Shown: positions 7,814 through 26,676 of the stretch, in pieces
How the letters are laid out: each line of letters opens with the position of its first letter
How positions within the stretch are numbered: position 1 is the first letter of the stretch
Assembly (NCBI RefSeq): GCF_900177685.1
Contig: NZ_FXAY01000002.1
Span: forward strand, 558,001-622,000
From: Agreia pratensis
Lineage (GTDB): Bacteria; Actinomycetota; Actinomycetes; Actinomycetales; Microbacteriaceae
Direction: 5' to 3'
Length of the DNA: 64,000 bases
The notes under the pieces: generated by a model
Seen by the model: the letters and a program-made list of their open reading frames with translations, nothing else
Told to the model about the DNA's origin: nothing
The model's database searches: none
Program-made: the position numbers and the translations under genes

Positions 7814-9283
7814 ATGTACGAACCCACGACCTCTCCGGCCACAGAAGCGCCACCGCCCCGTCTCCGCGACGAGTGGATTGCGCTGGCCGGCCTTTCGGCG
7901 GTGTTTCTGTTCGAGATGCTCGACAACTCCGTTTTGAACGTCGCACTTCCGACCATCGGTCGCGAGCTCACGGCGTCGACCGCGTCGCTGCAATGGGTCT
8001 CCGGGGCGTACTCGGTCGTCTTCGGTGGCCTGATGCTGCTGTTCGGTGCGGTCGCAGACCGTGTCGGTCGGCGCCGGGTCATGCTCGTCGGCCTGACGCT
8101 GCTGGCAGTGGTGAGCATCCTGACCGTGTTCGTCACCTCGGTGGAGCAGCTGATTGCCGTGCGGGCTCTGATGGGGATCGCCGCGGCGATGACAACGCCC
8201 GGATCAATGGCGCTGGCATTTCGCCTGTTCGATAGAGACGATCTGCGCGTGCGTGCACTGACCGTCATCTCTACCGCCGGGCTGGTCGGCCTCGCCACCG
8301 GGCCCACAATCGGCGGATTCGTGCTCGCCGTGGCGCCGTGGCAGGTGCTGATCGTCGCCAACGCTCCCATCGCGGCGATCGCTTTTCTGGGCATCCGGGG
8401 CGGGATCACCGCAGATCAACGAACCGACCTCCACCGCGACCCCGTCGACCTGATTGGCGCCGTCCTCGGTACGGCGACCGTGATCGGAGTCCTCCTCACA
8501 CCGACGCTGTTCGTCGCCGGCAACGACGTCGCCCTTGCCTGGGGCGCAGCAGCGGCCGCGGCGGCTGGCGCGGTCGGCTTCGTGCTCAGGGAGCGCACCG
8601 CGCTCCACCCGCTGCTGGATCTCCGTCTCGTCGCACAGCCACTGGTTGCCAGCGGTCTGGCCTACAAGGCGGCGGCAGGCCTCGCGATGGCCGGGCTGTC
8701 GTACATGGTCACGTTGCAGTTGCAGTTCGCGTGGGGGTGGCCGCCGGCCCTGGCCGCAGTCGGCACACTCCCGCAGGTCGTGGTGCTTCTCGCGAGTGGC
8801 CGCTTCGTCGGCCCGTTCGTGAAACGAGTGGGTCTTGATCGAGCGGCCTGGATGAGCGCCGCGGCCGTGATCGCCGGGCTCGCCGTGTTCGCTCTGCTCG
8901 GCAGATTGGGCTACCCCTGGGTCCTGATCGCTCTCGTGCTTGTCGCCGCCGGGATGCGAGTGGTTGGCGTCGTCGCCGGTAATAACGTGCTTCGTGGTCT
9001 GCCCGACAACCGCACCTCCATCGGGGCGGCCCTTGTCGACACGGTCAGCGAGATCGCGACCGCGGTCGGCATCGCCGCGACAGGCACGATCCTCGCCGCT
9101 CTCGTCGGTGGCAGCATCACGACGATCACTTTCACCTCGGACCATCTCGCGTCATTCCAGGAGGCGATCCTCATAGCGGGCCTGACCATCACCGCTATCG
9201 CCGCAGCGCTCGTCTGCATCGGCATCAACCGTTCGCGCCGCACCCCCGCCCAGCCCACCAATCAGGAGCCTTCCTATGTCTGA
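7814..9283 (+). CDS. DHA2-family (EmrB/QacA-type) MFS drug exporter
   Basis: A 489-residue protein with about 14 hydrophobic segments. Residues about 37-50 (FEMLDNSVLNVALP) and about 85-98 (FGAVADRVGRRRVM) are the D1 and A motifs of 14-helix MFS drug:proton antiporters. Such pumps export lipophilic or cationic compounds. A good ribosome site (GAAGGAG) precedes the ATG. The last 8 bp overlap the esterase gene, so the two are co-translated. No TetR or MarR repressor is adjacent, so regulation is not visible. The substrate is unknown. Confidence 0.92.
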   Translation: MYEPTTSPATEAPPPRLRDEWIALAGLSAVFLFEMLDNSVLNVALPTIGRELTASTASLQWVSGAYSVVFGGLMLLFGAVADRVGRRRVMLVGLTLLAVVSILTVFVTSVEQLIAVRALMGIAAAMTTPGSMALAFRLFDRDDLRVRALTVISTAGLVGLATGPTIGGFVLAVAPWQVLIVANAPIAAIAFLGIRGGITADQRTDLHRDPVDLIGAVLGTATVIGVLLTPTLFVAGNDVALAWGAAAAAAAGAVGFVLRERTALHPLLDLRLVAQPLVASGLAYKAAAGLAMAGLSYMVTLQLQFAWGWPPALAAVGTLPQVVVLLASGRFVGPFVKRVGLDRAAWMSAAAVIAGLAVFALLGRLGYPWVLIALVLVAAGMRVVGVVAGNNVLRGLPDNRTSIGAALVDTVSEIATAVGIAATGTILAALVGGSITTITFTSDHLASFQEAILIAGLTITAIAAALVCIGINRSRRTPAQPTNQEPSYV

Positions 9284-10256
9284 CCTCATGCCCCGCCCTC
9301 CGTTCGATCCGGAACTCTCCACGTTCCTCACTGCCTTCGAGGCACGCGGCCCCTTCACCCTCACCACCGAGATGCTGCCGCACATGCGAGGCCTCGACAC
9401 GACCGAAGAAGCGCTCGACGAGCGGCTAAGGTTGCGCGGGTATGAGCGGCGCACGATCACGGTGCCCGGCCACCTCGGGGATCCGATCACGCTTGCCGTG
9501 ATCCAGCGGATCGGCCGCACCGGAGCCACGACCGCGGTGTACTCGATCCACGGCGGCGGCATGATGTTCGGTCACTACCTCGGAAACCTCGATTCGTACG
9601 ACGACTGGCTGCTGAACGACCATGACGTCGTACTCATCAGCGTCGACTACCGTCTCGCCCCCGAATACCCCGACCCATATCCGGTCGAGGACTGCTACGC
9701 CGGACTCGTCTGGGTGCACGCCCACGCAGAGCAACTCGACATCGACCCGAACCGCATCGTCATCGCCGGGCAGAGCGCCGGCGCTGGACTCGCCGCCGGT
9801 ATATCCCTGCTCGCTCGCGACCGGAGTGGACCGTCGATCCTCGCGCAGATCCTGGTGTCGCCTATGCTCGATGACCGCGACTCCACCGTGTCGACGAGAC
9901 AGATCGATGGCATCGGGGTCGCGGATCGGCAGATGACCCGCTTCGGCTGGGACGCCTACCTCGGCTCCCGCCGAGCCGGCGAAGACGTGTCCGTGTACGC
10001 TGCACCGGCACGAGAGACCGACCTCTCTGGGCTTCCGCGCACCTACATCGACTGCGGAAGCGCAGAGGTCTTCCGCGACGAGACGGTCGCCTACGCCAGC
10101 GGCTTGTGGGCCGCCGGTGGTGACGCGGAGTTGCACGTCTGGCCGGGTGCTTTCCACGGCTTCACGAGCATGATGCCCACCGCCAGGATCTCGGTGACCG
10201 CCACAGCAGCTCTGGCCGATTGGACCAGGCGGCTTCTCGGAGCAGGTGCGCGCTAG
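9276..10256 (+). CDS. Alpha/beta hydrolase, HSL-type esterase
   Basis: A 326-residue enzyme of the hormone-sensitive-lipase group. The oxyanion motif HGGG (about 90-93) is followed by the nucleophile elbow GQSAGAG (Ser about 169), an Asp near residue 265 and His in GAFHGF near the end. It hydrolyses short acyl esters; the natural substrate is unknown. It overlaps the MFS exporter by 8 bp, so it may modify the compound that the pump exports. Codon use matches the surroundings. The 169 bp after it hold nothing recognisable. Confidence 0.9.
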   Translation: MSDLMPRPPFDPELSTFLTAFEARGPFTLTTEMLPHMRGLDTTEEALDERLRLRGYERRTITVPGHLGDPITLAVIQRIGRTGATTAVYSIHGGGMMFGHYLGNLDSYDDWLLNDHDVVLISVDYRLAPEYPDPYPVEDCYAGLVWVHAHAEQLDIDPNRIVIAGQSAGAGLAAGISLLARDRSGPSILAQILVSPMLDDRDSTVSTRQIDGIGVADRQMTRFGWDAYLGSRRAGEDVSVYAAPARETDLSGLPRTYIDCGSAEVFRDETVAYASGLWAAGGDAELHVWPGAFHGFTSMMPTARISVTATAALADWTRRLLGAGAR

Positions 10257-10425
10257 GGGAGCGGATGAGCAAGTCAACCGTCGTGACGTCGAGATGCACG
10301 AGATCGCGGTGCGGTACCGGCATGACTGCGTTAGCGGGCCCCTTGCTCCGTGGGAGGATCAAAGGGTTTTGTTTCGATGCGTTTCGTGAGGACGAGGCCG
10401 TCTGATAGATCGAGGAGGGGCACGC

Positions 10426-11298
10426 GTGAGCGAGGAGCTGACCCCGGGTGTCGAGCCACAGCGCGGACCGGATAACACGGAGCCGGACGGCCCGACAACG
10501 GGTCGGGCGGCGGGACTGGGCATCGTCGCGCTCCTGTTCGCGCTGCTCGTGGCGAGTTGGTTGATCCAACTCTCGTCGTTTCTGCAGCGGGATTTCGGGC
10601 CATTTGAAAAGAGGCTGAGTGACGGCGGAGTGGTTGTCTGGGTCTCGATCGCTGCAGCGATCGCGATCCTGTCGCCCATCGTTGTACTCATCCTGCAGGC
10701 GCGCGTTCACAAGCGAAATCCGCGACACTCGATCGCCGCCGTGCTCGGGGCCGTGGTGGTGCTCGTGATCGCGGTTCCGACGAACACCATAGTTGTCGGC
10801 TCCCAGGTAGCCAACCTCGTGACGGAACTCAATCAAAAGGCGCAGCCACCGACCGCGGCCGAGACCTTCTTCGAGCGCACTGGCGGCGATCCCCGCAGCA
10901 AAGTTCTCGAGTTGGGCGACGAGACAGTTCGGCTTCTGGGCGGAGACCCGACCGCGGATACGAAGGACTCCGACGCTGATTTTCGCGTGTCCAGCGATGA
11001 GTGCGAGCTCGACAACCGCAACCCCGGCATCATGTGGTCTTATCACTACGACGCTGGGTCGCAGGTTGATGCCACCGGTCAGCCGCTCGTGCCCGAGGGG
11101 TCTAAAGACCTGCCGACGGCGACGCACGACATGGCGGGTGTTATCGCCTACTGGGCGAGCCACGGCGTCACCGCTACAAAGGATGAAGACGTCAGCTCCG
11201 ACGAGCAGTACCGGGCAGAGGCCGAATGGTTGGGCTATGACTCGTGGAGCCGCCCCGCGCCCGACGTGCGGTTCGATACGATCTGCCTCGTCGACTGA
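10426..11298 (+). CDS. Membrane protein of unknown function
   Basis: A 290-residue protein with a charged, proline-rich N-terminus (1-27), three hydrophobic segments (about 30-47, 66-88 and 103-122) and a 165-residue extracytoplasmic C-terminal region with several acidic patches and two cysteines (ECELDN and TICLVD). It starts at a GTG with a strong ribosome site GAGGAGGGG. I recognise no family. It stands between the esterase and an acetyltransferase gene 42 bp downstream. Confidence 0.65.
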   Translation: MSEELTPGVEPQRGPDNTEPDGPTTGRAAGLGIVALLFALLVASWLIQLSSFLQRDFGPFEKRLSDGGVVVWVSIAAAIAILSPIVVLILQARVHKRNPRHSIAAVLGAVVVLVIAVPTNTIVVGSQVANLVTELNQKAQPPTAAETFFERTGGDPRSKVLELGDETVRLLGGDPTADTKDSDADFRVSSDECELDNRNPGIMWSYHYDAGSQVDATGQPLVPEGSKDLPTATHDMAGVIAYWASHGVTATKDEDVSSDEQYRAEAEWLGYDSWSRPAPDVRFDTICLVD

Positions 11299-17896: not shown

Positions 17897-17943
17897 CGTT
17901 CCCTGAGCTTGTCGGAGGGGCCCTTCGACAAGCTCAGGGAACG
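17897..17943. repeat. REP-like palindrome, copy 1
   Basis: A 23-nt arm (17897-17919) and its near-perfect complement (17921-17943) share the core CTGAGCTTGTCG/CGACAAGCTCAGG with one mismatch. It lies between the end of the ferritin-like gene and the start of the dehydrogenase gene. A related element is at 61138-61190. The same core is widespread as a dispersed palindrome in bacterial chromosomes. It may also terminate the upstream operon. Confidence 0.75.
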
Positions 17944-17950
17944 AAGGCGG

Positions 17951-18739
17951 TTAGACGCCCAGCGCGTTGAGCGAGTCGTCGACGATCGTGAGGCCTTCGA
18001 GACCGGGGAGGCCGCTGATGGCGGTGTCGATCTTGCGCGCGGCCTTGCGGCCTTCCACGCCACCCATGAGGTGACCCATCACGTGCTTGACCTCGTTCTT
18101 CTCCATGATGCTGGAGCCGACGGGAGCCCAGAAGTTGCTCAGCGCGAAACGGGCGAATTTCTGCGCCTTCGTGCTTTTCGCCAGACGCTCGCGGGCCTGC
18201 GACGTGTAGAACGCCACGTGGCGAGCCTCTTGTTTCGCGATGCGCTTCAGGAGCTCGGCGAGCACAGGGTCTTCTTCGAGCGCGGCCATGCGGTTGTACG
18301 CGGTGATCGCCGACCACTCGTTGGCAGCGCCCCACGCCATGTGAACGGCTACGAAGTCGGCGCCGACGACCTTGCCGATCACCGACTGCTTGATCGGGTC
18401 GAGCTTGTCGCGCCAGCCGAGCTTCAACCGCTTGGCCTTGAGTTCGTCGAAGTCGACATGGATTCCATGGATTCCGAGCACGGTGGCAAGTGCTTCACCG
18501 TGCCAGAACTCCTCGCGGTTCCACATGGTCATGAACGCGCCCATCTCGGCCTCTTTGTGCGAGGGCGTGGTGAGCAGGTCGCGGGTGTAGCAGACGGTGT
18601 GATATTCCACATCGGCCATATAGCGCAGGGTGCGCAAAGAACCCTCGGGTAGGGGGTGCTCGCGGAACCGCTCGAGATCGAGATCGTCCCAGTTCACGCT
18701 GACCGAGGTGGCCGTGTATTTGTCTACGTCGAATGCCAT
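17951..18739 (-). CDS. Ferritin-like diiron protein (acyl-ACP-desaturase-like)
   Basis: A 262-residue all-helical protein. It carries the six ligands expected for a ferritin-like diiron centre: Glu in DVEYH, the pair REEFWHGE (ExxH), Glu in ANEWSA and the second pair KQEARHVAFY (ExxH). The EExxH...ExxH order is that of acyl-ACP desaturases and relatives, which act on fatty chains with O2. It starts 14 bp after the reductase-HAD fusion, as the last gene of a three-gene operon. The ATG at 18737-18739 is used because upstream residues overlap that gene. The substrate is inferred to be a lipid or fatty aldehyde/alcohol from the neighbours. It is paralogous to the protein at 21072-21890. Confidence 0.75.
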   Translation of the reverse strand: MAFDVDKYTATSVSVNWDDLDLERFREHPLPEGSLRTLRYMADVEYHTVCYTRDLLTTPSHKEAEMGAFMTMWNREEFWHGEALATVLGIHGIHVDFDELKAKRLKLGWRDKLDPIKQSVIGKVVGADFVAVHMAWGAANEWSAITAYNRMAALEEDPVLAELLKRIAKQEARHVAFYTSQARERLAKSTKAQKFARFALSNFWAPVGSSIMEKNEVKHVMGHLMGGVEGRKAARKIDTAISGLPGLEGLTIVDDSLNALGV

Positions 18740-18753
18740 GGTGTGGGGAGAGT

Positions 18754-21075
18754 TTACTCTCCGGTTCCCTTCGCGAATTGCGGCAGAGCGGAAGCTCCGC
18801 GAGTGCCGCGTTTCCAGTTGTGGATGCTCCATCTTCTTCGGAGCGCCTCGCGAGAAAGATTGGTGTCGGGGTTGATGGCGGTGGGGTTGCCGAGCAGCTG
18901 AAGCCACACGAGGTCGGAGTGGCTGTCGCCGTAGCCGTACGACTTCGACAGATCCATGCCGTGCGTCTCGGCATAGCGCCGCAACCAGGCGGCGCGCGCC
19001 TCATCGACCAGGGGAGGCTGAGCCAGATAGCCGGTCAGTATGCCGTCGCGCTCATGCATCGATCCGGCCACGACGTCGTCGAAGAGCGCCGCGAGCGGCG
19101 AGGCCAGGATGCCGATGGATCCGGTGACCAGCACGGTGCGGTGGCCAGCGGCCCGGTGCTCTTCGATGCGAGCGATCGCAGAAGGCATCGTGTGTCGCAG
19201 CAGCGTCTCGCGGTAGCCGCCGGAGACGACCTTCTCGAGTCGTTTCGCGGGCATACCGCTGTAGCGACGCAGGAACGCTCGAATGAACTCGCCGCGGTCG
19301 CGGTGCTCGGCCTTCAGGTAGCCGGGAAGAGACGTGAGGAGGCTGGCGACCTCGCTGGGCCATGCGGCCTTGCGGAAACCCGCGGAGCGCACCCAGAGGT
19401 ACTGCTCGACGATGTTTGAGTCGACGACCGTGCCCTCGAAGTCGAAGACGGCGAGCACATCGCTGCGCTGCGGGAGCGCCTTCGCGACCCGCTCCGATGC
19501 CGCCGGGCGCAGCGCGAACGCCCGAGTCAGCGCCGTGATCGACGGGAAGTGCACCTTCTGCAGGTAGTCCTCCCAGTCGATGGCTGTCACATCGAAGCCG
19601 ACGTCGTCTCGCAGCTCGGCGGGCAGCGCATTGTGCAGCGCCCGCGTGTTGCGGTCGTCGAAGATGATCTCGGTCTGCACATAGGCGCGGTAGAGCTCGA
19701 CGAAGGTGCGCAGGTTCTCGAGGTCGTCTTTGCGCTTGAGGGCCTTCTTGACCTGAACGCGCGTGCGTTCGGTCGAGGGCAGACGCTCGAGGGCCCTCTC
19801 GAGTCGCGCGTTCCAGACCTCCTGGTTGTGCAGCACACGGTCGACTTTGCGCGTTCCCGGGAAGGTCCAATACGGAACCTCGATGTGCCCGTCGTTCTCG
19901 TGCGGCAGGGGCGTGGCCGTGAAGAATTCGTTCATGTTCGTGAACATGCGGTGGATCGGCAGCGGATTCCGGGCGCCGGAACTCACGTGGTAGTACGCGG
20001 AGTCGACCTCGGCGTCCGGTTCAGTCGGATTCGCGGCGACGGCGAGGATGACGTTGACCACGTAGTCGACGGGAATCACGTCGAGCACGGTGTCGGGCAG
20101 GGCCGGGAACTGCGTGAGGTTGCCCCGGGCGTAGGCGAGAACCAGGGGATCCGCGACCTTGAATCCGTCGATCCACCCCGGATACGGGTGGCGCAGCGCG
20201 CTCTCGATGATGGCCGGGCGAACGACCGACAGTCGGTGACCGGTGTCGCGCCAGAGCTCTTCGGCGGCCCGCTCGGCGAACGACTTGGTGAGCGTGTAGA
20301 CGTCGGTCCAGCCGAGGCTCTGGGCGCGGCTCCGCCCGTAGTCGACGAGTCGCTCGCGCACCCACTCGACGCGTCCGTTCTCAGCGGCGGTCGCGACCGC
20401 CTGAGGGCCTTCCTTGCCGTGGACGACGCGCGCATCGTGCATGAACGTGCGCAGCGTCTCGGGCTGGCGCGATGCCATCTCGACGCGCACCCGGGCATCG
20501 CGGGCGGCAGTGAGCTCTGCGCGCCAGTCGACCTCGTGCTTGAGTCGTCCCTCGGGAACGATGCCCTTGCGCAGCCCGCCGACGTAGGCGGTCGAGACGT
20601 GCACGACGTGCGGATCGCCGCCGGACTCGACAAGCGCGGTGTAGAGAGCGATCGCTCCGCCGAGGTTCGTCTCGAAGGCCTGATCGATGGGCGGGTCGAA
20701 CGACACGGTGGATGCGCTGTGGATCACGACGTCGAGATCGGCCGGCAGCGGCGGAACGTTGGCGAGGTCGCCCGGAATCACACGCAGTCGCTCACGCACG
20801 GCGCGCTCGACCTCTTCTTCGCCGACGCGCTCTCGCCATGGACCGAACACGGGCTTGCGCAACAGGGTGCGCAGCCGGTCTTCGGCGGTCGTGCTGCCCT
20901 TGGTGCGGATGAGCAGCGAGATCGTGGTCGCCGGATGCGACGAGAGAAGCCTTTCGACGATCGCCTGGCCGACGAAACCGGTTCCTCCGGTGATGAAGAC
21001 GTGGGCGTCGCCGAGCTCGGAGGACGCTGTCCACGACAGCGTGTCACTCACGGTGCTGGCCACCGCGTCGCTCAC
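18754..21075 (-). CDS. Fatty acyl reductase (NAD-binding 4)-HAD-IB fusion
   Basis: A 773-residue two-domain protein. Residues about 25-420 are an extended SDR of the fatty acyl-CoA reductase group, with ITGGTGFVGQAI (about 27-38) and catalytic YTLTK. This group reduces acyl thioesters to aldehyde or alcohol. Residues about 540-773 are a HAD-IB hydrolase: VFDFEGTVVDSN, LVTGS and GYGDSHSD. The first HAD motif reads D-x-E, where phosphatases have D-x-D. It starts at GTG (21075), overlapping the previous stop as GTGA. Together with the ferritin-like genes and the divergent acyltransferase/AGPS genes it fits fatty alcohol supply for ether lipids. Confidence 0.82.
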   Translation of the reverse strand: MSDAVASTVSDTLSWTASSELGDAHVFITGGTGFVGQAIVERLLSSHPATTISLLIRTKGSTTAEDRLRTLLRKPVFGPWRERVGEEEVERAVRERLRVIPGDLANVPPLPADLDVVIHSASTVSFDPPIDQAFETNLGGAIALYTALVESGGDPHVVHVSTAYVGGLRKGIVPEGRLKHEVDWRAELTAARDARVRVEMASRQPETLRTFMHDARVVHGKEGPQAVATAAENGRVEWVRERLVDYGRSRAQSLGWTDVYTLTKSFAERAAEELWRDTGHRLSVVRPAIIESALRHPYPGWIDGFKVADPLVLAYARGNLTQFPALPDTVLDVIPVDYVVNVILAVAANPTEPDAEVDSAYYHVSSGARNPLPIHRMFTNMNEFFTATPLPHENDGHIEVPYWTFPGTRKVDRVLHNQEVWNARLERALERLPSTERTRVQVKKALKRKDDLENLRTFVELYRAYVQTEIIFDDRNTRALHNALPAELRDDVGFDVTAIDWEDYLQKVHFPSITALTRAFALRPAASERVAKALPQRSDVLAVFDFEGTVVDSNIVEQYLWVRSAGFRKAAWPSEVASLLTSLPGYLKAEHRDRGEFIRAFLRRYSGMPAKRLEKVVSGGYRETLLRHTMPSAIARIEEHRAAGHRTVLVTGSIGILASPLAALFDDVVAGSMHERDGILTGYLAQPPLVDEARAAWLRRYAETHGMDLSKSYGYGDSHSDLVWLQLLGNPTAINPDTNLSREALRRRWSIHNWKRGTRGASALPQFAKGTGE

Positions 21076-21890
21076 GATCGCAGCTTTCGGGCGACGGCGT
21101 CGCCGGTCTGCGGGGTCAGGCCGGGAAGTTCTGCCACTCTGTTTCCGATCGTGGTTGCTCGCTGGAGTCCGTCGGCACCGCCGAAGACGGTCTGTTCGAA
21201 AAAGGTTCTGTCGGCGTCGGAACGATCGACCGCTCCGATCGGCCAGGCGGCGTGGGCCAGTTGGCTCGTCGCCTGTTTGACGGTCTTGGACGATTCGGCG
21301 AGGCGGCGCCGAGCCTCCTCGGCGAAGAACAACTCGTGCCGGCTCTTGATGTCGCGGATCGTATCGAGTGTCGCGCTGAGCGTCGGGTGCCCGGCCACAG
21401 CATCCAGCCGTTCGTAGGCCGTGGCCATGACCCACTCGTCGATGAGGCCGGCCGTCATGTGAACGCCGGTGAGCGGCACGCCTTGGCCCATGGCGAGGAT
21501 GGCGCGTCGGATCGGCCCGCGGCGCTCGGCCGACTCGGAGCGATCAGCGCGTGGCGCACCCTCGTCGCCCACCTGCGCGCCGGTGCTGCCGTTGGCCACG
21601 AGGATCTGATCGATCGCGTCGGCGATCCAGAACTTCTCGAAGGCCCAGGTGACGAGAAATGCCGTGACTCGGGCGTCTTTGTGGGTAGCCGTCACGAGAA
21701 GGTTGCGCAGCTGCTCCATGGTGGCACTCTCGAGCCGACCGAGGTAGCGCAGCAGATGAACGGCATCGGCCGAGAGCTGTGCGCCCTCGTAGCCCTCGAG
21801 ATGCAGCTCGGGTCGGAGGTTTCCGCGGGCTGTGCTGGCGAACTGTCGCACGTCGAACCGCGCTCGTGAAGTTGCGTCTGTGGATGTCAT
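21072..21890 (-). CDS. Ferritin-like paralogue with degenerate metal site
   Basis: A 272-residue helical protein that aligns along its length with the product of 17951-18739 (LLRYLGRLESA with LRYMADVEYH; DEWVMATAYERL with NEWSAITAYNRM). Three of the six diiron ligands are replaced: the first ExxH pair reads FEKFWIAD (Glu to Lys, His to Ile) and the second reads IKSRHE (Glu to Lys). It is therefore unlikely to bind a diiron centre and may be the non-catalytic partner of a heterodimer. First gene of the minus-strand operon; its stop overlaps the GTG of the fusion gene. Confidence 0.75.
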   Translation of the reverse strand: MTSTDATSRARFDVRQFASTARGNLRPELHLEGYEGAQLSADAVHLLRYLGRLESATMEQLRNLLVTATHKDARVTAFLVTWAFEKFWIADAIDQILVANGSTGAQVGDEGAPRADRSESAERRGPIRRAILAMGQGVPLTGVHMTAGLIDEWVMATAYERLDAVAGHPTLSATLDTIRDIKSRHELFFAEEARRRLAESSKTVKQATSQLAHAAWPIGAVDRSDADRTFFEQTVFGGADGLQRATTIGNRVAELPGLTPQTGDAVARKLRS

Positions 21891-21901
21891 GAAAGCCCTG
21901 C

Positions 21902-21911
21902 CGACCGGTCG
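21902..21911. promoter_or_regulatory. Palindrome in the divergent intergenic region
   Basis: CGACCGGTCG, a perfect 10-bp palindrome, lies in the 71-bp gap between the two lipid operons, 12 bp before the minus-strand ATG. It could be an operator for both, but no regulator gene is adjacent. Confidence 0.3.
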
Positions 21912-21949
21912 AAAACCTGCGTGCGTAAACGACGCCGTGAAGAGCAGAC

Positions 21950-21955
21950 TAACCT
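21950..21955 (+). promoter_or_regulatory. -10-like element for a leaderless SDR transcript
   Basis: TAACCT ends 7 bp before the ATG at 21962 and there is no Shine-Dalgarno sequence. A transcript starting at the ATG is therefore plausible, as is common in actinobacteria. No clear -35 is seen. Confidence 0.35.
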
Positions 21956-21961
21956 AACCCC

Positions 21962-22738
21962 ATGGCTGTAGCTCTCGTTACGGGAGGAACGTCTGGCATC
22001 GGTGCTGCGTTCTCCCGGTCCCTCGCTGCGCAGGGATATGACCTCGTTCTCGTCGCTCGAAGCGTTCCGCGACTGGAGGAGATGGCCGACGAGATCCGTG
22101 CCCTCGGCCGTTCTGTCGAGATCTTCCCGGCCGACCTCGCCGATCGTGACGACGTCGCCCGCGTCGCCGAGCGACTCGAAGATGCGTCGAGACCGATCGA
22201 CATGCTGGTCAACAACGCTGGATTCGGCGTGCACACGTCGCTCATCGACGCCGATGTCTCGGCCCACGACCGCGCCTTCGAGGTCATGTGCCGAGCCGTG
22301 CTCGTTCTCTCCGGCGCCGCCGCGCGTGGGATGCTGCCACGCGGCTCGGGAAAGATCGTGAACGTCTCGAGCACGGCGGGTTTCGTGACCATGGGCGCGT
22401 ATTCGGCGCTCAAGGCGTGGGTCACCTCGTTCACGGAGGGGCTCGCGGTCGAGCTGCGCGGCACGGGTATCGGCGTGACGGCCCTCTGCCCGGGCTGGGT
22501 GCACACCGAGTTTCACGAGCGCGCCGGAATCAAGGCGTCGAGCATTCCAAACTTCTTGTGGCTCGACGCCGAACAACTTGTCACGGCATGCTTGCGCGAC
22601 GTTGACCGAGGCAGGGTAATCTCCATACCGACTGTTCGGTACCGAACCCTCATCTGGTTGGCTCGCCACGCACCGAGGAGTGCGATTCGCGCAGTCTCCG
22701 GGTCGATTTCCTCGAGTCGAAAGAAGCCGGTCACCTAG
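21962..22738 (+). CDS. Short-chain dehydrogenase/reductase (DltE/YqjQ-like)
   Basis: A 258-residue classical SDR: TGGTSGIGAAFS (about 7-18), NNAGFG (about 84-89) and the Ser...Tyr-x-x-x-Lys set in SSTAGF...YSALKAW. It is NADP-dependent by likeness to the group reducing keto lipids and 1-acyl-DHAP-type ketones. In this operon it is well placed to reduce acyl- or alkyl-DHAP; that assignment is inference. The stop is directly followed by the ATG of the acyltransferase at 22739. Confidence 0.87.
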   Translation: MAVALVTGGTSGIGAAFSRSLAAQGYDLVLVARSVPRLEEMADEIRALGRSVEIFPADLADRDDVARVAERLEDASRPIDMLVNNAGFGVHTSLIDADVSAHDRAFEVMCRAVLVLSGAAARGMLPRGSGKIVNVSSTAGFVTMGAYSALKAWVTSFTEGLAVELRGTGIGVTALCPGWVHTEFHERAGIKASSIPNFLWLDAEQLVTACLRDVDRGRVISIPTVRYRTLIWLARHAPRSAIRAVSGSISSSRKKPVT

Positions 22739-23488
22739 ATGGCTGAATTAGAACCCGCGTCAGCAAGACGCCCCGGCGATGTCGCCGGTGAGCGTGATCG
22801 ATTCAACTCGCCCGGAGTCGCGGCGGCCCGTTTCGTCGTGCAGCGCGGGCTCTTGAAGCCCCTCATCTGGTCGCTCACCCGCGTCACCGTGATCGGCCGG
22901 GAGAAGCTCAAAGACGTAGCCGGGGGTTTCGTGGTCGTCGCGAATCACTCTAGCCATCTGGATGCGCCGCTCATCGTCGGCTCGCTCCCACGCCGCCTCG
23001 CGCGCTACCTTGCCACCGGCGCCGCAGCCGACTACTTCTTCGCGGTGTGGTGGAGACGCGGTCTCACCGCCCTGTTCTTCAACGCTTTTCCCGTGAAGCG
23101 CATGGAATCGAAGGCCAAGTCGATCAGCGCACGCTCGCTGCTGTCGCGTGGAATCCCGATCCTGATCTTCCCCGAGGGAACACGATCGAAAGACGGCGAG
23201 GTCGGAGCGTTCAAGCCCGGAGCCGCGGCGCTCGCGGCGTCGTGCGACGTTCCGACCATTCCCATGGCTCTCATCGGTGCCCATGTCGCCCACCCGCGCG
23301 GAGCGAACTGGCCCCGTCGGGGCCGTCACCCGGTCGGCGTCGTCTTCGGTGAGCCGCTTCGCCCCGTCGCGGGGGAGACCCCGGGGCATTTCGCCGAGCG
23401 CACGAAACAAGAGATCCTGCGCCTGCGTGACCTTCATTCCGCGACTATCCTTGGCCAGTCCCCACGATCTAGAGGAGCCCTGCAATGA
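22739..23488 (+). CDS. PlsC-type 1-acyl-glycerol-phosphate acyltransferase
   Basis: A 249-residue membrane-associated enzyme with the HX4D motif (NHSSHLDAP, about 63-71), the FPEGTRS motif (about 142-148) and a later IPMALIGAH. It transfers acyl chains to a glycerophosphate acceptor. In this cluster DHAP or a 1-alkyl-glycerol-phosphate are the likely acceptors. It abuts the SDR gene and overlaps the flavoenzyme gene as ATGA (23485-23488). A ribosome site for that gene (AGAGGAG) lies inside its last codons. Confidence 0.9.
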   Translation: MAELEPASARRPGDVAGERDRFNSPGVAAARFVVQRGLLKPLIWSLTRVTVIGREKLKDVAGGFVVVANHSSHLDAPLIVGSLPRRLARYLATGAAADYFFAVWWRRGLTALFFNAFPVKRMESKAKSISARSLLSRGIPILIFPEGTRSKDGEVGAFKPGAAALAASCDVPTIPMALIGAHVAHPRGANWPRRGRHPVGVVFGEPLRPVAGETPGHFAERTKQEILRLRDLHSATILGQSPRSRGALQ

Positions 23489-25152
23489 GCGATGTCAAGC
23501 ACATGAAATGGTGGGGCTGGGGCGTCGACGGCGTCGCTTTCCACCACGAGAACAAGCCGGGCTTCGCGCCGTTCGTGAAGAAGAACCTCGGCCTCGACCT
23601 CAAGAAGACCAAGGGCGAGCCGCCGACATTCGCCGACATCGATGTTCCCTCCAGCCGCGCGGCGGAGTCCTTCGTTCTACTTCTGGCCGGAATCGTCGGG
23701 GACGAACATGTCGAGACCGACGACATGTCCCGGGTCGTGCACACCTTCGGCAAGAGCATCCGCGACCTCATCCGCGTTCGCACCAGCGCATTCCCGCGCG
23801 CGGTCGACGTTGTCGTATACCCGGCCAACGAGGCCGAGGTCCGCCTCATCGTCGACGCGGTCGTCGCATCCGACGCCGTGCTCATTCCGTTCGGTGGCGG
23901 CAGTAACATCGCCGGCAGCCTCGAGCCGCTCGCGGGCGAGGAGCGCACCGTGGTGTCGCTCGATCTCGGTCGACTCAACCGCGTCATCGAGCTCGACGCC
24001 GATTCGAGCCTCGCGCGCATCCAGGCCGGAGCCCAGGGTCCTGACCTCGAGGCCGAGCTGAATGAGGCCGGCTGGACCCTCGGACACTTCCCCGACAGCT
24101 TCACCCACTCCACGGTGGGCGGCTGGGTGGCGACGCGCTCATCCGGAATGCAGAGCGACAAGTTCGGCGACATCGCCGACATCGCGAAAGGCCTGCGTGT
24201 GGTGCGCCCCGGCGGAGTGCTCGTTCTGCGCCCGCTGCCCAGCACCTCGACCGGCCCCAGCGTGCGCGAGATGATTCTCGGCAGCGAGGGGCGCCTCGGC
24301 GTCATCACCGAGGTCACCGTGCAGATCCACCGCATCCCGGCCAAGCGCGAGATCCTCGCCTATCTCTATCCCACCTGGGATGCCGGACTGGCGGCCATGC
24401 GCGAGATCTCCGAGAGCGACGCCACGCCCTCGATCACCCGCGTCTCCGACGGTAATGAGACGCTGTTCTCGTTCGCCACGTCGAAGAAGAGCAAGGGTTT
24501 CTCGGCGCTCGCCACGAAGGGCCTCGGCGTCTTCTTGAAGGCCAAGGGCTGGGACACCGAGAAGATGTGCCTGTCGTTCGTCGGCAACGAGGGCGGCGAA
24601 GAGCTGGTGGCGACGAACCAGAAGATCATCGCCGGCATCGTCAAGAAGCACGGCGGCATCACGGTGGGCAAGGGCCCGGGCGTGCTCTACGACCAGAAGA
24701 AGTTCGACACCCCGTACATCCGTGACTGGTTCCTCGACTGGGGAGGGTCTGCAGACGTCTCCGAGACGGCGGCTCCGTGGTCGAAGCTTCCCGAGCTCTA
24801 CCGCAACGTGATCGCCAGCGCCAATCACGCGTTCGACGAGATCGGCGTCAAGGGCTGGATCATGGCGCACCTCTCGCACTCGTACACCTCGGGTGCCTGC
24901 CTGTACTTCACGTTCGCGTACCTCGACACCGGCGACGCCATCACGAACTACGACGTGGTCAAGAGTGCGATTCAGCAGGCGTTCATCGACGCCGGCGGAA
25001 CGCTGTCTCACCACCACGGCGTCGGCCTCGAGCACGCTCCGTGGATGGAACAGGACATCTCGACCGAGGGCGTGAAGGTCATGCGCGGTCTCTTCGGAGC
25101 TGTCGACCCCGGTCGCCACTTCAACCCGGGCAAGGTTCTGCTCGACGAATGA
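23485..25152 (+). CDS. Alkyl-DHAP-synthase-like FAD-binding oxidase
   Basis: A 555-residue flavoprotein of the VAO/PCMH family. The N-terminal KWWGWG, the FAD segment GGGSNIAGS (about 137-145), STVGGWVATRSSG and the C-terminal SHHHGVG...NPGK resemble alkyldihydroxyacetonephosphate synthase (AGPS). AGPS swaps the acyl chain of acyl-DHAP for a fatty alcohol to form an ether bond; the three consecutive His near the C-terminus are the AGPS active-site signature. Related flavoenzymes oxidise 2-hydroxyacids or D-lactate, so the operon context is what favours AGPS. It overlaps genes on both sides. Confidence 0.8.
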   Translation: MSDVKHMKWWGWGVDGVAFHHENKPGFAPFVKKNLGLDLKKTKGEPPTFADIDVPSSRAAESFVLLLAGIVGDEHVETDDMSRVVHTFGKSIRDLIRVRTSAFPRAVDVVVYPANEAEVRLIVDAVVASDAVLIPFGGGSNIAGSLEPLAGEERTVVSLDLGRLNRVIELDADSSLARIQAGAQGPDLEAELNEAGWTLGHFPDSFTHSTVGGWVATRSSGMQSDKFGDIADIAKGLRVVRPGGVLVLRPLPSTSTGPSVREMILGSEGRLGVITEVTVQIHRIPAKREILAYLYPTWDAGLAAMREISESDATPSITRVSDGNETLFSFATSKKSKGFSALATKGLGVFLKAKGWDTEKMCLSFVGNEGGEELVATNQKIIAGIVKKHGGITVGKGPGVLYDQKKFDTPYIRDWFLDWGGSADVSETAAPWSKLPELYRNVIASANHAFDEIGVKGWIMAHLSHSYTSGACLYFTFAYLDTGDAITNYDVVKSAIQQAFIDAGGTLSHHHGVGLEHAPWMEQDISTEGVKVMRGLFGAVDPGRHFNPGKVLLDE

Positions 25153-26033
25153 TGCGTGCCCGTCTCGGCGGCCCCGTCGGAGCGGCGGGGCTCGTCGTCG
25201 TCGGGCTCGCGTGCCAAGAGGTGGGTGCGGCATTCGCCGTGCTGCTGTTCCCGAGCGTGGGCGCGCTCGGGATGGTCGCGCTGCGCCTGACCTTCTCCGC
25301 CCTCATCCTTCTCGCGATCGCGCGACCGTCGGTGCGAGGCCGCAGCCGCGGCGACTGGATGACGGTGGTGCTGTTCGGCGTGGCCCTCGCGGTGATGAAC
25401 GGGTTGTTCTACGAGGCGCTCGCGCGCATCCCGCTGGGCGCCGCGGTGACCATCGAGGTTCTCGGGCCGCTCGTGCTCTCGGTGGCCACGAGCCGACGCG
25501 CATCCAGTTGGCTCTGGGCGGTGCTCGCCTTCGTCGGCGTCTTTCTGCTGGGGCAGGGCAGCTTCGGCGAGCTCGACCCCGTGGGCGTGCTCTTCGCCGC
25601 GGGGGCCGGAGCGAGCTGGGCCGGCTACATCCTGCTGTCGTCACGCACGGGCAGTCGCTTCGCCCGGCTCGACGGCCTCGCGCTGGCCATGACCATCGGT
25701 GCCGTTCTCACCCTTCCGCTCGGAGTCGCCGCCGCCGGCCCCGTGATCGTGCGACCCGACATCCTGCTTCTCGGGGCGGCTGTCGCAATCCTGTCGTCGA
25801 CGATTCCGTACGCCCTCGAGCTGTTCGCGCTACGACGCATCCCCTCGTCGACCTTCGCGATTCTGATGAGCCTGGCCCCCGCGATCGCAGCTCTCGCCGG
25901 TGTCGTGCTCTTGGCTCAGCACATCTCGCTTGTCGGAGTTCTGGCCATCGCGCTCGTCGTGACCGCGAGCATCGGAGCGGTGCGCAGCGCGGGGCCGGGA
26001 GCTACTCCCGTCGCTCGTGCCGACGTGGTTTGA
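25149..26033 (+). CDS. EamA/RhtA-type 10-TM transporter
   Basis: A 294-residue protein with ten hydrophobic segments in two EamA repeats (for example LAVMNGLFYEALARIPLGAAVTIEVLGP in part, and the second-half SSTIPYALEL). This group exports amino acids or small metabolites (RhtA-like). Two in-frame ATGs sit together at 25149 and 25152; the first overlaps the AGPS-like stop. Its last 32 bp overlap the convergent DUF4166 gene. Whether it serves the lipid pathway or merely shares the transcript is open. Confidence 0.87.
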   Translation: MMRARLGGPVGAAGLVVVGLACQEVGAAFAVLLFPSVGALGMVALRLTFSALILLAIARPSVRGRSRGDWMTVVLFGVALAVMNGLFYEALARIPLGAAVTIEVLGPLVLSVATSRRASSWLWAVLAFVGVFLLGQGSFGELDPVGVLFAAGAGASWAGYILLSSRTGSRFARLDGLALAMTIGAVLTLPLGVAAAGPVIVRPDILLLGAAVAILSSTIPYALELFALRRIPSSTFAILMSLAPAIAALAGVVLLAQHISLVGVLAIALVVTASIGAVRSAGPGATPVARADVV

Positions 26034-26676
26034 GCCGCGCTGGAGCATCCAGAGCATCGGGGAAATCGCAGCTGAAAGTGCCCTCGTAGCCGAAGAGGAA
26101 GCCGAACCAGCGATTGCGTACCTCGAGCTTCATCCGATACAGCCGAGCCTCGTCGTCGTAGCTCTCGTGCAGCTCTGCGCGCCCGCTGAACAGCATCGGA
26201 AAACGGAACGCGAAGGGGCCTTCGTAGAAGCGCTGCGCGTCTGAGAGCAGCACCAGGGAGCCGTCGTCGTTCACCGTGAGATCGAGGTCGACAGCCAGGT
26301 GCTGGTGTGTGCCGAGGTAGTCGATTACGCGCCCCGCACGCTCGCTGTAGATCATGGTGGCGTCGAAGCGATGAGGTCGCGGGCCCGCGCCGTAGCTCCG
26401 CACGAACGTGACCGTCTCGCGCCCGAACGGATCGCGATAGGGGTAGTTCTCGATGCTGAACGGAACGTTCTCACCCTGAATCGGCACGAGGATGTTGCGG
26501 ATGCGGCCGATCCAGAGAAAGGGCACTGTCCACCAGGGCCCTCGTCGGATGCGGGTCATCGTGCCGGTGCCCACGCACCCGTAGCCCGCGTCGAGTCCGA
26601 CGCCGAACCGCTTCTGCATCATCGGGTGCAGCCGCTCGAATTGCTCGCCGAGCGCCAGCGCGAAGACGGCGGTCAC
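26002..26676 (-). CDS. DUF4166-family protein
   Basis: A 224-residue protein with the text ERLHPMMQKRFG (about 13-24) and the strand-rich body ENVPFSIENYPYRDPFGRE typical of DUF4166. No transmembrane segment, no enzyme motif. It starts at a GTG overlapping the previous stop (GTGA, 26673-26676). The role of the family is unknown to me. It overlaps the EamA gene tail-to-tail by 32 bp, which is unusual but not rare in compact genomes. Confidence 0.75.
   Translation of the reverse strand: MTAVFALALGEQFERLHPMMQKRFGVGLDAGYGCVGTGTMTRIRRGPWWTVPFLWIGRIRNILVPIQGENVPFSIENYPYRDPFGRETVTFVRSYGAGPRPHRFDATMIYSERAGRVIDYLGTHQHLAVDLDLTVNDDGSLVLLSDAQRFYEGPFAFRFPMLFSGRAELHESYDDEARLYRMKLEVRNRWFGFLFGYEGTFSCDFPDALDAPARLKPRRHERRE

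Follow-up and report, generated by a model that had tools for sequence, protein, structure and literature searches.

An AGPS-type gene locus of aerobic actinobacteria as a candidate pathway for ether lipids and plasmalogens, accompanied by a soluble diiron protein pair

A compact locus at positions 17951–26033 of a 64,000-nucleotide stretch of the Agreia pratensis genome (contig NZ_FXAY01000002.1, positions 558,001 to 622,000; hereafter the window) most likely encodes an aerobic AGPS-type ether-lipid pathway leading to plasmalogens, a reading to which we assign a probability of roughly 60%. Agreia (Microbacteriaceae) is an aerobic genus of soil and plant bacteria, and the host genome of the window comprises 3.58 Mb on 10 contigs. 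The seven genes of the locus are as follows (aa, amino acids; FAR, fatty acyl reductase; SDR, short-chain dehydrogenase; DHAP, dihydroxyacetone phosphate; ACP, acyl carrier protein).

17951–18739, minus strand: diiron protein 1 (P0001, 262 aa), a soluble oxidase that resembles acyl-ACP desaturases and ferritins and is predicted to be the catalytic member of the pair
18754–21075, minus strand: FAR-HAD (P0002, 773 aa), fusion of a HAD-IB phosphatase-like domain to a fatty acyl reductase made up of NAD_binding_4 and Sterile domains
21072–21890, minus strand: diiron protein 2 (P0003, 272 aa), degenerate paralogue of P0001, predicted non-catalytic partner
21962–22738, plus strand: SDR (P0004), short-chain dehydrogenase, candidate alkyl/acyl-DHAP reductase
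22739–23488, plus strand: PlsC-type acyltransferase (P0005), candidate DHAP or lyso-acyltransferase
23485–25152, plus strand: AGPS-like flavoenzyme (P0006, 555 aa), predicted alkyl-DHAP synthase
25149–26033, plus strand: EamA/RhtA-like exporter (P0007), overlapping the AGPS gene, not core

The coordinates bear out all seven genes named in a preliminary description of the window, together with their overlaps and their arrangement in two divergent operons, which are separated by 71 bases (21891–21961). Minus-strand transcription runs from diiron protein 2 through FAR-HAD to diiron protein 1, and the plus-strand order is SDR, PlsC, AGPS-like enzyme, and EamA. Neighboring genes overlap by 4 bases at 21072–21075, 23485–23488, and 25149–25152. 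The start codon of FAR-HAD is GTG; a longer open reading frame (ORF) to 21435 would overlap diiron protein 2.

The identity of the flavoenzyme P0006 is central to the reading. Among sequences in the PDB, it matched AGPS from Dictyostelium (2uuu, E=2e-115) and guinea pig (4bby, E=2.5e-83), whereas the best D-lactate dehydrogenase match (8jdb) reached only 7e-22, and the GlcD model scored 122 bits versus a cut-off of 568. The KWWGW motif occupies residues 8–12 and the SHHHGVG motif residues 508–514. Residues R319, R413, Y474, and H509–H511 align with both AGPS structures and were matched to what we take to be the AGPS active site, two arginines, one tyrosine, and a His-His-His stretch. Two FAD_binding_4 paralogues from the same genome, used as outgroups, carry GEHG in place of the triple histidine, and the genome contains a single match at the strength of the locus-type AGPS. 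In a tree of 37 rows, built without the paralogue L166 (wrong frame) and with two of the seven outgroups from the host genome of the window, the locus-type enzymes formed one clade (support 100/99) separate from a second actinobacterial AGPS-like clade with 33–40% identity, and guinea-pig AGPS branched elsewhere on a long branch. The preliminary description had called the enzyme AGPS-like and named clustering with 2-hydroxyacid dehydrogenases as one refuting outcome; that comparison, by E-value, residues, and tree, left the assignment standing. A 2-hydroxyacid dehydrogenase is ruled out by the AGPS and D-lactate dehydrogenase E-values, the GlcD score, and the AGPS residues. Judged by sequence, catalytic residues, and tree, P0006 is with confidence AGPS-like, and it may be an orthologue of eukaryotic AGPS.

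The remaining core enzymes belong to families expected to act around AGPS. P0002 matched the Pfam families NAD_binding_4 (E=1e-44) and HAD (8e-33), with the Sterile domain just under its cut-off (34.4 versus 35.4 bits), and aligned over residues 21–513 with the fatty acyl-CoA reductase 7eoz in the PDB (E=5e-45). FARs of the Sterile-domain type usually proceed to the alcohol. Y260 and K264 of the FAR part and D545, D717, and D721 of the HAD part are kept in 72 of 72 sequences. The SDR P0004 belongs to the Pfam family adh_short (E=1e-46); its best NCBIfam model was the mycolate reductase CmrA, an identity rejected at 170 bits versus a cut-off of 380. P0005 matched the Pfam family Acyltransferase (E=2e-22), and its HxxxxD motif (H70, D75) as well as F144, E146, and R149 are kept in 81 of 81 sequences. 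As a separate observation, motif I of the HAD domain (residues 545–549, window positions 19429–19443) reads D-x-E instead of D-x-D, with E547 in 66 of 72 sequences; D-x-E at this place is unusual for a phosphatase.

In order to examine conservation, a collection of 84,980 species was scanned, which returned 327 relatives of P0006, and the best 80 loci were kept. Orthologues of SDR, PlsC, and AGPS were present in the fetched stretch of all 80 loci; in 77 of them the SDR precedes AGPS on the same strand (exceptions L028, L051, and L059). FAR-HAD was present in 71. The two diiron genes were found in 67, which is also the number of loci with the complete set of six; in 10 of these 67 (Subtercola and Ruania relatives), the second diiron ORF scored better against P0001 and was counted as the P0003 counterpart. 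Because the six core genes occur together in 67 of the 80 loci, the gene set lies far beyond chance, and the survey substantiates the earlier suggestion that related clusters exist in other actinobacteria. Within Agreia, P0001 to P0007 are 90–100% identical to their counterparts in five genomes (L009–L012, L017). Whole-genome searches for the 13 loci with an incomplete stretch identified a FAR-HAD match in every case (4 in the stretch, 9 outside) and diiron genes elsewhere in 5. The FAR-HAD matches outside the stretch showed 43–59% identity and were in two pieces in G307 and G312 and limited to the first third in G314. Two modules thus emerge, a core of SDR-PlsC-AGPS together with FAR-HAD, and the diiron pair, which was found in 72 of the 80. 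The EamA exporter, which had been counted as part of the set, is ruled out as a pathway member, as its orthologue occurs in only five of the 80 loci, all from Agreia.

A phylogenetic profile drew on 150 evenly sampled Microbacteriaceae genomes, of which 40 contained AGPS, 41 FAR-HAD, and 45 P0001; FAR-HAD accompanied AGPS in 40 of 40 genomes and P0001 did so in 39 of 40 (Fisher p values of 9e-36 and 2e-28, which ignore kinship and are descriptive). The sole AGPS genome lacking P0001, G257, is 85% complete. The extra FAR-HAD genome is G262, where the copy sits on a 17.7 kb contig, and P0001 without AGPS occurred in six genomes (G262, G104, G127, G182, G214, and G258). Among 296 genomes of the class, counted at E<1e-150 for AGPS and at about 60% identity or more for the diiron protein, with weaker matches taken as other paralogues, locus-type AGPS was present in 35, P0001 in 25, and both in 21. 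FAR, acyltransferase, SDR, and AGPS travel together across Microbacteriaceae and many other actinobacteria.

From family identity, residues, conservation, co-occurrence, and the match with taxa reported to contain dimethyl acetals (DMAs), all of which are observed, we infer every catalytic step of the following pathway. A branched fatty alcohol would arise from an acyl thioester through the FAR part of P0002. PlsC would acylate DHAP to 1-acyl-DHAP; alternatively, another acyltransferase would act there, with PlsC adding the sn-2 acyl group later. AGPS would swap the acyl group for the alcohol to give 1-O-alkyl-DHAP, the ketone of which would be reduced by the SDR to 1-O-alkyl-glycerol-3-phosphate, and dephosphorylation of an intermediate by the HAD domain is possible. 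A plasmanyl lipid with iso/anteiso C15–C17 chains would result. Finally, P0001/P0003 may oxidize the O-alkyl chain at C1–C2 in an O2-dependent reaction, yielding an O-alk-1'-enyl chain that would release DMAs upon acid methanolysis. That the locus makes alkyl ether glycerolipids is the most probable part of this proposal, and we consider it quite likely.

The two minus-strand proteins flanking FAR-HAD in transcription order had both been described as ferritin-like, which calls for a correction in P0003, where half of the metal-ligand positions are lost. The predicted metal ligands of P0001 (E45, E77, H80, E141, E171, and H174) are intact and identical in 68 of 68 sequences. An E, ExxH, E, ExxH arrangement on a helical core is the diiron ligand pattern of the soluble acyl-ACP desaturase/R2 type. 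The AlphaFold model of P0001 (predicted local distance difference test, pLDDT, 86.6) gave as best Foldseek matches the plant delta-6 acyl-ACP desaturase 7t63 (template modeling score 0.60), the R2-like ligand-binding oxidases (R2lox), and Mycobacterium tuberculosis DesA2, at 11–20% identity among the 50 matches listed. Against Pfam PF03405 (FA_desaturase_2), P0001 scored 21.7 bits, below the cut-off of 22.7. P0003 is a paralogue of P0001 (30% identity, BLASTP E=6e-35) in which three of the six ligand positions are lost to K86, I89, and K182. Across 68 P0003 sequences, whose alignments include upstream ORF extensions for some loci, glutamate occurs at position 86 in 1, histidine at 89 in none, and glutamate at 182 in none. 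Its model (pLDDT 90.2) is R2lox-like with no Foldseek match at E<=0.001; no Pfam family matched P0003 at E<=0.001, and 27 aligned members showed no consistent Pfam match. The neighboring intact and degenerate genes in 67 loci and five stand-alone pairs suggest that P0001 and P0003 form a heteromer.

Lipid chemistry in print provides independent evidence. Subtercola, Frigoribacterium, and Agreia had been singled out as genera reported to contain DMAs before the genome scan was made, and the AGPS scan returned all three genera. In the available excerpts of the papers cited here and below, S. vilae DB165T contains 17.0% i-16:0 DMA and 3.2% a-15:0 DMA, DMAs are also listed for S. frigoramans, S. 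boreus, and S. lobariae, and Agreia contains iso-15:0 DMA at up to 4% (PMC5945732). The locus is present in the DB165 genome itself (L046), the very S. vilae strain that was measured. All six genes were also found in S. boreus (L048, L064, L069), where the sequenced strains differ from the measured one, and in S. lobariae (L074), A. bicolorata (L017), and F. faeni (L023, L030), which were matched at species level. For F. adelgis and F. faeni, both 15:0 anteiso aldehyde/DMA and 14:0 2-OH are reported (PMC12823222).

The 14:0 2-OH reports may conceal further DMAs. In Kineococcus rubinsiae, a peak named 14:0 2-OH by the MIDI system proved to be anteiso-15:0 DMA by gas chromatography–mass spectrometry, and the authors noted that plasmalogens may be present (PMC7472656). 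The S. vilae type strain was given 15.6% 2OH-C14:0 by MIDI (PMC9287328), and the same strain is listed with DMAs and no 14:0 2-OH in the excerpt of another study (PMC5945732). Levels of 14:0 2-OH of 4.2% in Glaciihabitans tibetensis, which carries the locus (L042), and 17.0% in F. faeni have been published, along with traces in Lysinibacter cavernae and Lacisediminihabitans profunda (PMC7033078); these last two are not among the best 80 loci, and a Lacisediminihabitans metagenome-assembled genome (L082) is. Frondihabitans, in which DMAs are said to be lacking and 14:0 2-OH to be a major acid (PMC5945732), has the locus in one sequenced strain (L041). Read together, we take the DMA and 14:0 2-OH reports to reflect hidden plasmalogens. 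The MIDI 14:0 2-OH of actinobacteria may at least partly be misnamed anteiso-15:0 DMA, so that carriers may be recorded under the wrong name. On balance, we favor the locus as the basis of the DMA phenotype. The plasmalogen-like product proposed in the preliminary description thus gains from published DMAs in three locus-bearing genera, and diiron desaturation of the ether chain stays a candidate.

We next consider which enzyme would form the vinyl ether. PF10520, the family of CarF/PEDS1, had no match in the genome of the window, where no control genome matched either, in any of 10 genomes with the locus, among them those of S. vilae, S. boreus, S. lobariae, A. bicolorata, and two F. faeni (searched without a positive control), or in 148 class genomes (again without a positive control). 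None of P0001–P0008 matched it at E<=0.001. PF09989 (DUF2229), which we take as a proxy for PlsA, was found in 0 of 11 genomes, with the control matching in 4 of 14, and a PlsA-type origin of the DMAs is rejected on this count. That the P0001/P0003 pair is the vinyl-ether former is a tentative assignment, with somewhat less than an even chance. Still more tentative is the fuller proposal that P0001 and P0003 constitute a new soluble diiron-carboxylate plasmanyl delta-1' desaturase, unrelated to CarF/PEDS1 and PlsA/PlsR, which would be a third plasmalogen route, in aerobic actinobacteria.

Several observations weigh against the plasmalogen reading. The locus clade joins Dictyostelium AGPS weakly (86/74, long branches), and in L172 and L177 the fetched 14 kb, to which the search for FAR was confined, contained AGPS and none of FAR, SDR, PlsC, and the diiron genes. 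The best model for P0005 is the acylglycerol-phosphate acyltransferase family (below cut-off), not DHAP acyltransferase. With respect to the diiron pair, AGPS occurs without any P0001 match in 8 of the 13 re-searched genomes, and 14 of the 35 AGPS class genomes, L172 and L177 among them, have no P0001 match at E<=1e-10. P0001 occurs without P0003 in stretches fetched from another family (L154, L155, L157, L176, and L180), so the heteromer is not obligate everywhere. In G104, G127, G182, G214, and G258, the P0003-P0001 pair stands alone, without locus-type AGPS or FAR-HAD (G127 holds a distant AGPS paralogue), and the pair therefore has a use apart from the ether-lipid pathway, at least there. 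CarF/PEDS1 is a membrane protein, whereas the modeled fold of P0001 is of the soluble acyl-ACP-desaturase/R2lox-like type, and the absence of CarF from carriers, found in a search without a positive control, is suggestive only.

The chemistry adds to these points. S. lobariae is the sole Subtercola listed with both 14:0 2-OH (10.3%) and DMAs (PMC5945732), so some of the 14:0 2-OH reports may not reflect a misnamed DMA. F. endophyticum AS3.20 carries the locus (L050), and the excerpt on F. endophyticum reports neither DMA nor 14:0 2-OH (PMC12823222). S. metalliresistens likewise carries it (L045), and its major acids are listed without either compound in the available text (PMC10713820). S. endophyticus is given without 2OH-C14:0 in the excerpt describing it (PMC9287328).

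The rival explanations overlap with the preferred one and with one another, and their odds need not sum to one. The best-surviving rival, which we consider rather unlikely, holds that the locus makes only saturated alkyl (plasmanyl) ethers, that the diiron pair modifies another position, for example by desaturating branched acyl chains, and that an unrelated vinyl-ether enzyme is the source of the DMAs. The closeness of the P0001 fold to acyl-ACP desaturases, the five genomes with the pair and no locus-type AGPS or FAR, and the re-examined and class genomes with AGPS and no P0001 all favor it. However, it requires a further enzyme, since searches of the DMA-positive genomes revealed neither a CarF gene (without a positive control) nor one of PlsA type, and it sits poorly with the presence of P0001 in 39 of the 40 family AGPS genomes.

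Less credible again is the view that the flavoenzyme, despite its AGPS fold, is an oxidoreductase acting on another substrate and that the locus makes a non-ether lipid or glycolipid. AGPS-like proteins of both clades are indeed very common, L172 and L177 lack FAR, SDR, and PlsC nearby, and for ElbD homologues it has been pointed out that the gene need not mean the lipid (PMC11868695). Against this, the locus clade stands apart from other actinobacterial paralogues (100/99), and SDR and PlsC near AGPS in 80 of 80 loci, with FAR-HAD in 71, supply the other three activities of the known pathway. It seems quite improbable that the DMAs stem from FAR-made fatty aldehydes, free or bound, instead of vinyl ethers, with AGPS putting the alcohol into a minor product, given that a Sterile-domain FAR usually continues to the alcohol. 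The FAR-HAD match in every AGPS genome searched (40 of 40 and 13 of 13) and the F. adelgis peak given as 15:0 anteiso aldehyde/DMA (PMC12823222) would suit such aldehydes, but DMA at 17% of the S. vilae fatty acid profile is high for a free aldehyde (PMC5945732).

Comparison with known systems places the proposed plasmalogen pathway closest to the animal and myxobacterial ones. By family, the animal peroxisomal pathway (FAR1, GNPAT, AGPS, and PexRAP, then PEDS1/TMEM189) has the same four activities as the Agreia locus, namely FAR, PF01553-type acyltransferase, AGPS, and SDR (PMC9131029). Unlike it, the Agreia genes form one compact bacterial locus with FAR fused to HAD, a PlsC-like acyltransferase, a soluble diiron pair, and no PF10520 desaturase found. 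In Myxococcus xanthus, an aerobic host with plasmalogens, MXAN_1676-1674 and elbA-E bring together AGPS, FAR, acyltransferase, and SDR-type genes as in Agreia, and the elb cluster also has a HAD protein (ElbB). The FAR fusion partner there is an acyltransferase, whereas it is HAD in Agreia, and the vinyl ether is made by CarF, with no diiron pair mentioned in the available text (PMC9131029). The product of Clostridium PlsA/PlsR is likewise detectable as DMAs, but that system is anaerobic and reductive and starts from diacyl lipids, and its proxy PF09989 was absent from all 11 genomes. The soluble acyl-ACP desaturases, DesA2, and R2lox resemble the P0001 model in fold and diiron ligand pattern; unlike them, P0001 is usually accompanied by its degenerate partner.

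AGPS-like proteins of the locus type and second clade together were found in 146 of the 296 class genomes at E<=1e-60, the second clade being common in Actinomycetes. L172 and L177, from one genus, carry a second AGPS-like paralogue elsewhere in the genome in addition to the locus type. A plasmid search for AGPS gave one close match only, on a linear plasmid of Streptomyces sp. NBC_01450 (L181, 2.35 Mb), where a 66.7%-identical AGPS lies at 9001–10656 without usable annotation. The five stand-alone diiron pairs (L097–L101) lie at about 7–9.5 kb of each stretch. No neighbor was common to all five, five neighbor proteins scanned from two of these loci included no lipid gene, and the neighbors in L100 include a DNA ligase and a luciferase-like gene. 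In S. vilae (L046, 621–5201), a second PlsC-like gene and a lactate-racemase-family gene lie between diiron protein 1 and FAR-HAD, and a diacylglycerol-kinase-family gene lies beyond the widened section. By their families, these extra genes would fit a glycerolipid pathway. Other Subtercola loci and Labedella L085 show the same wide spacing.

At the edges of the Agreia locus, the EamA gene scored 68.7 bits with EamA and 195 bits with RhtA, under the cut-off of 354. A DUF4166 protein at 26002–26676 (E=1.5e-57) converges on and overlaps it; the DUF4166 gene lies beside the locus in four of the five Agreia loci, with one distant match (26%) in L037. A 23-nucleotide inverted repeat at 17897–17943, with arms 96% complementary and 1 base between, lies just 3' of diiron protein 1 and is possibly a terminator or a dispersed palindrome. 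A promoter and terminator scan gave nothing above shuffles, and a tRNA was the sole Rfam match.

Actinobacterial species descriptions have reported DMAs since 2000 (cited in PMC5945732 and PMC7472656), and earlier metagenome work took actinobacterial AGPS homologues as a measure of ether-lipid potential (PMC11868695). A review singles out the plasmalogens of myxobacteria as a striking exception among aerobic bacteria (PMC9131029). We found no gene cluster or gene assignment for actinobacterial DMAs, and no AGPS cluster of the Agreia type or its diiron pair, in the literature searched, which covered listings and excerpts and few subscription journals. The locus may explain the plasmalogen traces of aerobic actinobacteria in which no known plasmalogen gene was found, and it offers orphan DMA chemistry a defined set of genes that can be deleted in culturable strains with sequenced genomes. 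A further prediction from the locus is that core carriers in which no diiron pair was found, such as Microlunatus kandeliicorticis and Segeticoccus rhizosphaerae, make alkyl and not alkenyl ethers. If the diiron pair does make the vinyl ether, it would represent a third, independent plasmalogen chemistry carried out by a soluble catalyst, and actinobacterial plasmalogens would have gone unrecognized in taxonomic papers under the names dimethyl acetals or, mistakenly, 14:0 2-OH.

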